Assembly: GCA_938034415.1 (NCBI GenBank) | Contig: CALHLE010000046.1 | Location: forward strand, 62,001 to 126,000 | Direction of reading: 5' to 3' | Source of the DNA: an uncultured Anaerolineae bacterium | GTDB taxonomy: Bacteria; Chloroflexota; Anaerolineae; J036; Brachytrichaceae | DNA length: 64,000 nucleotides | Shown here: positions 13,148 through 13,612 of the stretch, in pieces | Layout: every line of letters begins with the position of its first letter | How positions within the stretch are numbered: the stretch's first letter is position 1 | Position numbers and translations under genes: made by a program | The notes under the pieces: model-generated | The model's input: only the letters and a program-made list of their open reading frames with translations | Database searches by the model: none | Told to the model about the DNA's origin: nothing

Positions 13148-13175
13148 TCGAGGGGCGTCGCTGGACGCCCCTCGA
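13148..13175 (-). terminator. Hairpin after the 81-aa gene
   Basis: A perfect 12-bp stem (TCGAGGGGCGTC with GACGCCCCTCGA) and a 4-base loop begin 23 bases after the small gene's stop. No U-tract follows, so termination may be weak or factor-assisted. Confidence 0.6.
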
Positions 13176-13197: not shown

Positions 13198-13443
13198 TTA
13201 AACCTTCTCCGGCTCGTAGAGCATGCCTTCCAGCAAACGCTCCACGGCCATTGTGTGGCTATCTACGCCGTGTTTCTTGAAGTACTCAGAGTTGCAGCTC
13301 CACTGCCCGTGATCGTAGGTGACGAGATACTCTCCGTTATCCCCGCGCACCATCACCTGGAAAGTCAAGAATTGGAATCGGTCGCGTTCCTGAGCGTAGC
13401 GATGCGCCTTTTCGACCTTACCGATCAGGCTTGAATCTGTCAT
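13198..13443 (-). CDS. Small conserved-looking protein, 81 residues, function unknown
   Basis: I do not recognise the family. The gene is convincingly real: AGGAGG lies upstream of the ATG at 13443, a near-consensus promoter sits at 13585-13612, and a strong hairpin follows the stop. The product is mixed-charge, soluble and lacks a signal peptide. Its C-terminal half, WSCNSEYFKKHGVDSHTMAV, has the spacing of a SWIM zinc finger (CxCx-n-CxH) in which only the first Cys-like position and the final His remain, so it could be a SWIM-derived domain that no longer binds zinc. That resemblance is weak. The 135-base leader contains a stable stem. Confidence 0.72.
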   Translation of the reverse strand: MTDSSLIGKVEKAHRYAQERDRFQFLTFQVMVRGDNGEYLVTYDHGQWSCNSEYFKKHGVDSHTMAVERLLEGMLYEPEKV

Positions 13444-13475
13444 TTGCTTTACCTCCTGTGAATGAAGACAAACAG

Positions 13476-13510
13476 TAAGGCACGCGACGCAGTCGCGTGC
13501 ACGTGCCTTA
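13476..13510 (-). other. Hairpin in the leader of the 81-aa gene, attenuator-like
   Basis: The transcript can fold a 13-bp stem, TAAGGCA plus CGCGAC paired with their complements around a TGC loop, with a 6-base bulge. An alternative pairing, TAAGGCACG with CGTGCCTTA, uses the same bases. A U-rich stretch (CTGTTTGT) follows, so the element could terminate or attenuate before the Shine-Dalgarno site. Confidence 0.55.
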
Positions 13511-13584
13511 TTCTCGCCTTGTTGGATTTACCGATGACGACAGCGAAGGCGCTTCCCTAGTCACTTTCGCTTGCATCGCTTTGG

Positions 13585-13612
13585 ATTCTATTAAAACGCC
13601 GCGCGATGTCAA
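13585..13612 (-). promoter_or_regulatory. Near-consensus sigma-70-type promoter for the 81-aa gene
   Basis: On the minus strand TTGACA (13607-13612), a 16-base spacer and TAGAAT (13585-13590). This is the best -35/-10 pair I found in the window. Transcription would begin near 13578, giving a leader of about 135 bases. Confidence 0.7.

Follow-up and report, generated by a model that had tools for sequence, protein, structure and literature searches.

What does the leader of a small gene do when it places about 135 nt between a strong promoter and the start codon? The question is raised by a gene encoding an 81-aa protein (positions 13198–13443, minus strand) in the window, that is, the whole stretch of 64,000 nucleotides analyzed here, which belongs to a draft genome of 2.8 Mb. 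The closest named relatives of the protein come from MAGs called Candidatus Roseilinea, Thermoflexales, or Anaerolineae, which places the genome in the class Anaerolineae of the Chloroflexota. On one side the gene is flanked by the divergent miaA gene (IPP transferase), and a gene for a TPR protein lies downstream. The −35 hexamer TTGACA (13607–13612, minus strand) and the −10 hexamer TAGAAT (13585–13590, minus strand), separated by a 16-nt spacer, are both conserved in relatives and together match the consensus at 11 of 12 positions. An earlier note, made from the sequence alone, had called this the best promoter in the window; it was indeed the only site with 11 matches in the 64 kb, and the next four sites scored 10. 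The −10 hexamer lies 141 nt from the ATG of the 81-aa ORF, giving a leader of approximately 134–135 nt if transcription starts 7 nt past the −10 hexamer. Translation of the main gene is served by a strong Shine-Dalgarno sequence, AGGAGG (13452–13457, minus strand), 8 nt before the ATG at 13443. A perfect 12-bp inverted repeat 3' of the gene (13148–13175, minus strand) is a probable transcription terminator. The Shine-Dalgarno site, the ORF, and this closing hairpin had each been named in the earlier note, and each is present in the sequence.

The AlphaFold model of the 81-aa protein confidently shows a helix, three strands, and two further helices, with a mean pLDDT of 92.8. Its sequence marks it as a degenerate representative of a small SWIM-like family. 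Members were found in all 28 genomes of the window's family, in 247 of the 298 class genomes sampled, and in 235 of the 301 sampled across Chloroflexota. Most relatives share the CxC..CxH pattern of the SWIM zinc finger (PF04434) with all four ligands, whereas the window's family has CNS..DSH in its place and has lost two of the four; apart from this loss, both protein and leader have been retained. The window protein had no match to PF04434 at the curated cut-off; one relative reached the cut-off of 19.6 bits, and the others scored 15–18 bits or gave no match. Searches with the 81-aa protein against the PDB and by fold returned no significant match, and the NCBIfam search gave no useful name. 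At locus L027, the SWIM-like gene is apparently frameshifted or truncated past a GFDS motif. Tandem SWIM-like genes occur at L062, L063, L114, and L119, where the promoter-terminator leader precedes the first copy; ligands have also been lost in some of the later copies.

Folding and comparison with relatives placed a terminator-like hairpin in the leader at 13476–13510 (minus strand). Its minimum-energy form has 15 bp and one bulge, and an alternative unbulged pairing of 9 bp, GCACGCGAC-TGC-GTCGCGTGC, occupies the same bases. The 13-bp bulged stem with two pairings described in the earlier note is thus correct in substance, the computed lengths being 15 bp (bulged) or 9 bp (unbulged). The U-rich tail that it reported is likewise present 3' of the hairpin (13462–13475, minus strand), but the tract CTGTTTGTCTTC is interrupted by a C and is weaker than the TTTTTTGTTTG or similar uninterrupted T run of the sister species. 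The folding energy of the leader had a z score of −2.95 relative to shuffled sequences. In the family alignment the outer stem was almost invariant and the inner stem varied, and among relatives in general the stem sequence varies freely. Counting base-pair covariation on the outer stems was abandoned as circular, since the stems had been chosen beforehand as paired. The leader also contains a 5' hairpin that is conserved inside the window's genus. Short palindromic repeats (CGAGAACTCTTGG, TTTGGCCAGAAGGCG) are inserted between promoter and terminator in the leaders of L019 and L022. The earlier note had suggested high expression; were the terminator-like hairpin to act by default, it would lower the expression of the 81-aa gene.

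A promoter and a leader were sought upstream of 118 orthologues, which represent more than 40 families. Promoters with 10–12 of 12 matches were present in 102 of these orthologues. Lack of stem conservation in orthologous leaders had been named beforehand as the outcome that would speak against a regulatory leader, and it was not what we found: a GC-rich, terminator-like hairpin with a T run lies between promoter and gene in 91 of the 96 orthologues that have a real leader, compared with 10% of dinucleotide shuffles. The leader therefore carries the sequence feature of a predicted intrinsic terminator between promoter and gene. The background was scanned in 323 kb, made up of the window plus the remaining sequence of the loci, with a terminator sought 30–140 nt past each promoter. 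Among 26 other strong promoters, a terminator followed only four, which, as identified from the sequences, precede two tRNA genes and two tandem SWIM-like genes, implying that the layout is specific to the SWIM-like gene. A pattern search of the host genome for the element found the focal locus and three other matches. The layout had no earlier description in the catalogues and literature searched, and the literature search on Chloroflexi leader peptides, SWIM proteins, and Dehalococcoides start-site maps gave nothing; these literature searches covered only a minority of subscription papers.

The layout is not universal. Under the criteria used, in which terminators and uORFs were called mechanically and main-gene start codons were set by rule, 57 of 196 non-redundant upstream regions had no terminator. 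At three loci (L024–L026) from one genus of the window's family, the leader is absent and the promoter lies 6–10 nt from the main ATG, so that the main gene itself is probably leaderless. The Limnocylindrales-like loci L216–L243 have no T-run terminator; in these, the SWIM-like gene is preceded either by a GC-rich hairpin (CCGCC..GGCGG) that is conserved or by a different conserved leader.

What, then, would the leader sense? The earlier note had left the choice among an attenuator, a riboswitch, and a protein-binding element. Conservation of the promoter-leader-terminator layout across the class supports the first of these. The other two fared poorly: Rfam searches at gathering and relaxed thresholds returned nothing credible for the leader, and the region 5' of the hairpin had no sequence or fold common across genera and differed in length as well. 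With no aptamer conserved across genera and no Rfam match, a riboswitch is not supported. Nor did the leaders show the hallmarks of a trp/his-type attenuator: the 5' arm of the terminator paired with upstream RNA less than in shuffled sequences (0.36 versus 0.43; mean z −0.49 ± 0.12), giving no sign of an antiterminator, and inspection of the uORF peptides listed revealed no run of regulatory codons. The likely sensor is instead a ribosome on a short uORF.

Such a uORF, which was absent from the earlier note, is present in the window. It spans 22 codons (MQAKVTREAPSLSSSVNPTRRE; 13508–13576, minus strand), and its TAA stop codon coincides with the hairpin's first base. Because its ATG is located only 8 nt past the −10 hexamer, the uORF is probably leaderless. 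The corresponding distance is 6–12 nt in most members of the window's family, which suggests that uORF translation is leaderless in this family. The ATG occupies the same place in the sister species, where most uORFs continue through the hairpin; many of these terminate at the Shine-Dalgarno sequence of the main gene or immediately before it. The peptides themselves vary by family (MRLFHG.., M[NS]GxxAR..KH, MIVSALQxGKH..KH, and MDV..). In the MRLFHG group indels shift the frame, yet the stop remains at the hairpin. Third codon positions were the most variable in the two larger uORF families, a modest signal that was absent in a third group.

To evaluate the placement of the stop, the part of the leader upstream of the hairpin was shuffled in 134 non-redundant, terminator-bearing leaders. 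In 73 of these leaders, an ORF starting with ATG ended within 15 nt of the hairpin base, compared with 29.7 ± 4.8 expected. When a Shine-Dalgarno sequence before the ATG was also required, the count was 38 against an expected 3.7 ± 2.0. Stops were depleted relative to the shuffles at −60 to −11 and peaked between −10 and +19, with 41 versus 14.7 at −10 to −1, 17 versus 5.4 at 0 to 9, and 16 versus 5.0 at 10 to 19 (observed versus shuffled). The shuffles ignore phylogeny; with one leader per 70% protein cluster, which removes relatedness only partly, a uORF still ended at the hairpin in 39 of 75 leaders (14.9 ± 3.4 expected). In the remaining 61 of the 134 leaders, no ATG uORF stopped 15 nt or less from the hairpin; in some of these, including most of the window's own genus, the uORF runs through the hairpin, and others have no clear uORF. 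As a control, we measured the terminator that follows the SWIM-like gene at 77 loci. Its arm started 20–39 nt past the stop codon in 54 of them and within 10 nt in 4%, showing that the spacing in the leader is not that of a usual gene end in these genomes.

Given this layout, we favor, with some confidence, the reading that the leader is a ribosome-controlled transcription attenuator similar to that of pyrBI. RNA polymerase would start at the strong promoter and soon make the terminator hairpin, where by default most transcripts would end after some 100 nt. A ribosome that arrives at the stop codon of the uORF, located at the base of the 5' arm or inside it, would cover the arm while the polymerase passes; with the hairpin blocked, the polymerase would continue into the SWIM-like gene. 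The gene would thus be on when translation keeps pace. Since only the position of the stop would be needed, with no antiterminator or particular peptide, the element would measure the distance of the first ribosome behind the polymerase. In E. coli, the terminating ribosome represses a terminator located 5 nt beyond a stop codon to less than 10% efficiency, whereas more than about 30 nt away efficiency reaches approximately 90%; pyrBI shows similar behavior (PMC4824070). The leader stops fall inside this repressing zone, and it is on this basis that we propose that a ribosome at such a stop allows the polymerase to continue. Timing is the chief difficulty, as the terminator lies about 100 nt from the start and the ribosome may lag unless the polymerase pauses. 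In E. coli, terminators lying less than 100 bp into a coding region are reported to be efficient (PMC4824070); therefore, ribosome initiation would have to be rapid, or the polymerase would have to pause.

The same architecture could also be read as a constitutive partial terminator, which would yield a short RNA or mini-mRNA of about 100 nt and, through a fixed fraction of read-through, a low and unregulated amount of the small protein. Conservation of the strong promoter, the short transcript, and the terminator agrees with this, as does the 5' arm being kept free of upstream pairing, which is expected of a hairpin that always forms; however, a uORF that is led by a Shine-Dalgarno sequence or leaderless and that consistently stops at the base of the hairpin is not predicted, and we regard this explanation as unlikely, though worth serious attention. 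It is improbable that the ribosome acts with the opposite sign, with uORF translation favoring termination and stalled or missing ribosomes turning the gene on, as with vmlR or the Rho-type DUF1127 leader. Such uORF systems do sense translation stress (PMC12218461; see also PMC9226507), but the type with an intrinsic terminator requires an antiterminator, and pairing of the 5' arm with upstream RNA is below chance; moreover, with the stop inside the stem, a terminating ribosome would block the terminator (PMC4824070).

A leader acting as a riboswitch or through a bound protein, possibly the SWIM-like protein itself in an autoregulatory role on the hairpin, would fit the class-wide presence of the hairpin and the conserved 5' hairpin in the window's genus. 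With nothing conserved upstream across genera, stem sequences free to vary, no Rfam match, and no competing structure, we consider it very improbable. That the arrangement arose by chance, or is an ordinary leader with no function, is scarcely credible: three members of a sister genus do manage without the leader, but the shuffle, flank, and cluster controls speak against chance, which conservation had already refuted. Beyond the ribosome-controlled attenuator itself, we put forward more tentatively, and with slightly more doubt than belief, a phylum-wide sensor of translation pace. It would depend on the position of the uORF stop on the terminator alone, ignore peptide sequence and metabolites, use leaderless uORFs in some lineages, and control a core SWIM-like protein that may act on transcription or translation.

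Among known systems, pyrBI of E. coli is a pyrimidine operon preceded by a 44-codon leader peptide and UTP-sensitive pause sites. Like the present leaders, it has its uORF stop within or beyond the terminator and lacks an antiterminator; a close ribosome prevents the hairpin, as is proposed here (PMC4824070). In contrast to pyrBI, the uORFs described here usually have 8–40 codons, and the gene encodes a single small SWIM-like protein. The trp, his, and ilv attenuators also have a short leader peptide before an intrinsic terminator; however, amino-acid attenuators use antiterminators and regulatory codons and have their terminator more than 20 bp from the leader stop (PMC4824070), whereas no antiterminator or codon run was found here and the stop lies at the hairpin. 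In Sinorhizobium meliloti, uORF-dependent premature termination precedes a DUF1127 gene, whose small protein is of unknown function, and has been proposed to monitor translation efficiency (PMC12218461). That leader resembles the reading proposed here in its uORF-linked attenuation before a small-protein gene but differs in being probably Rho-dependent, in its C-rich codons, and in its opposite sign. By analogy, the leader described here would work as pyrBI-type leader-peptide attenuators do, having neither the antiterminator nor the runs of regulatory codons seen in the trp type, and is a candidate member of the leader-peptide class.

If this reading is correct, an attenuator family has persisted in several deep lineages of a phylum that has received little study, and its physical logic would be simple, the gene being switched by a ribosome close behind the polymerase. 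These leaders would then offer a natural test of transcription-translation coupling beyond the usual model bacteria, including at leaderless uORFs, and a core SWIM-like protein would be tied to the translational status of the cell.
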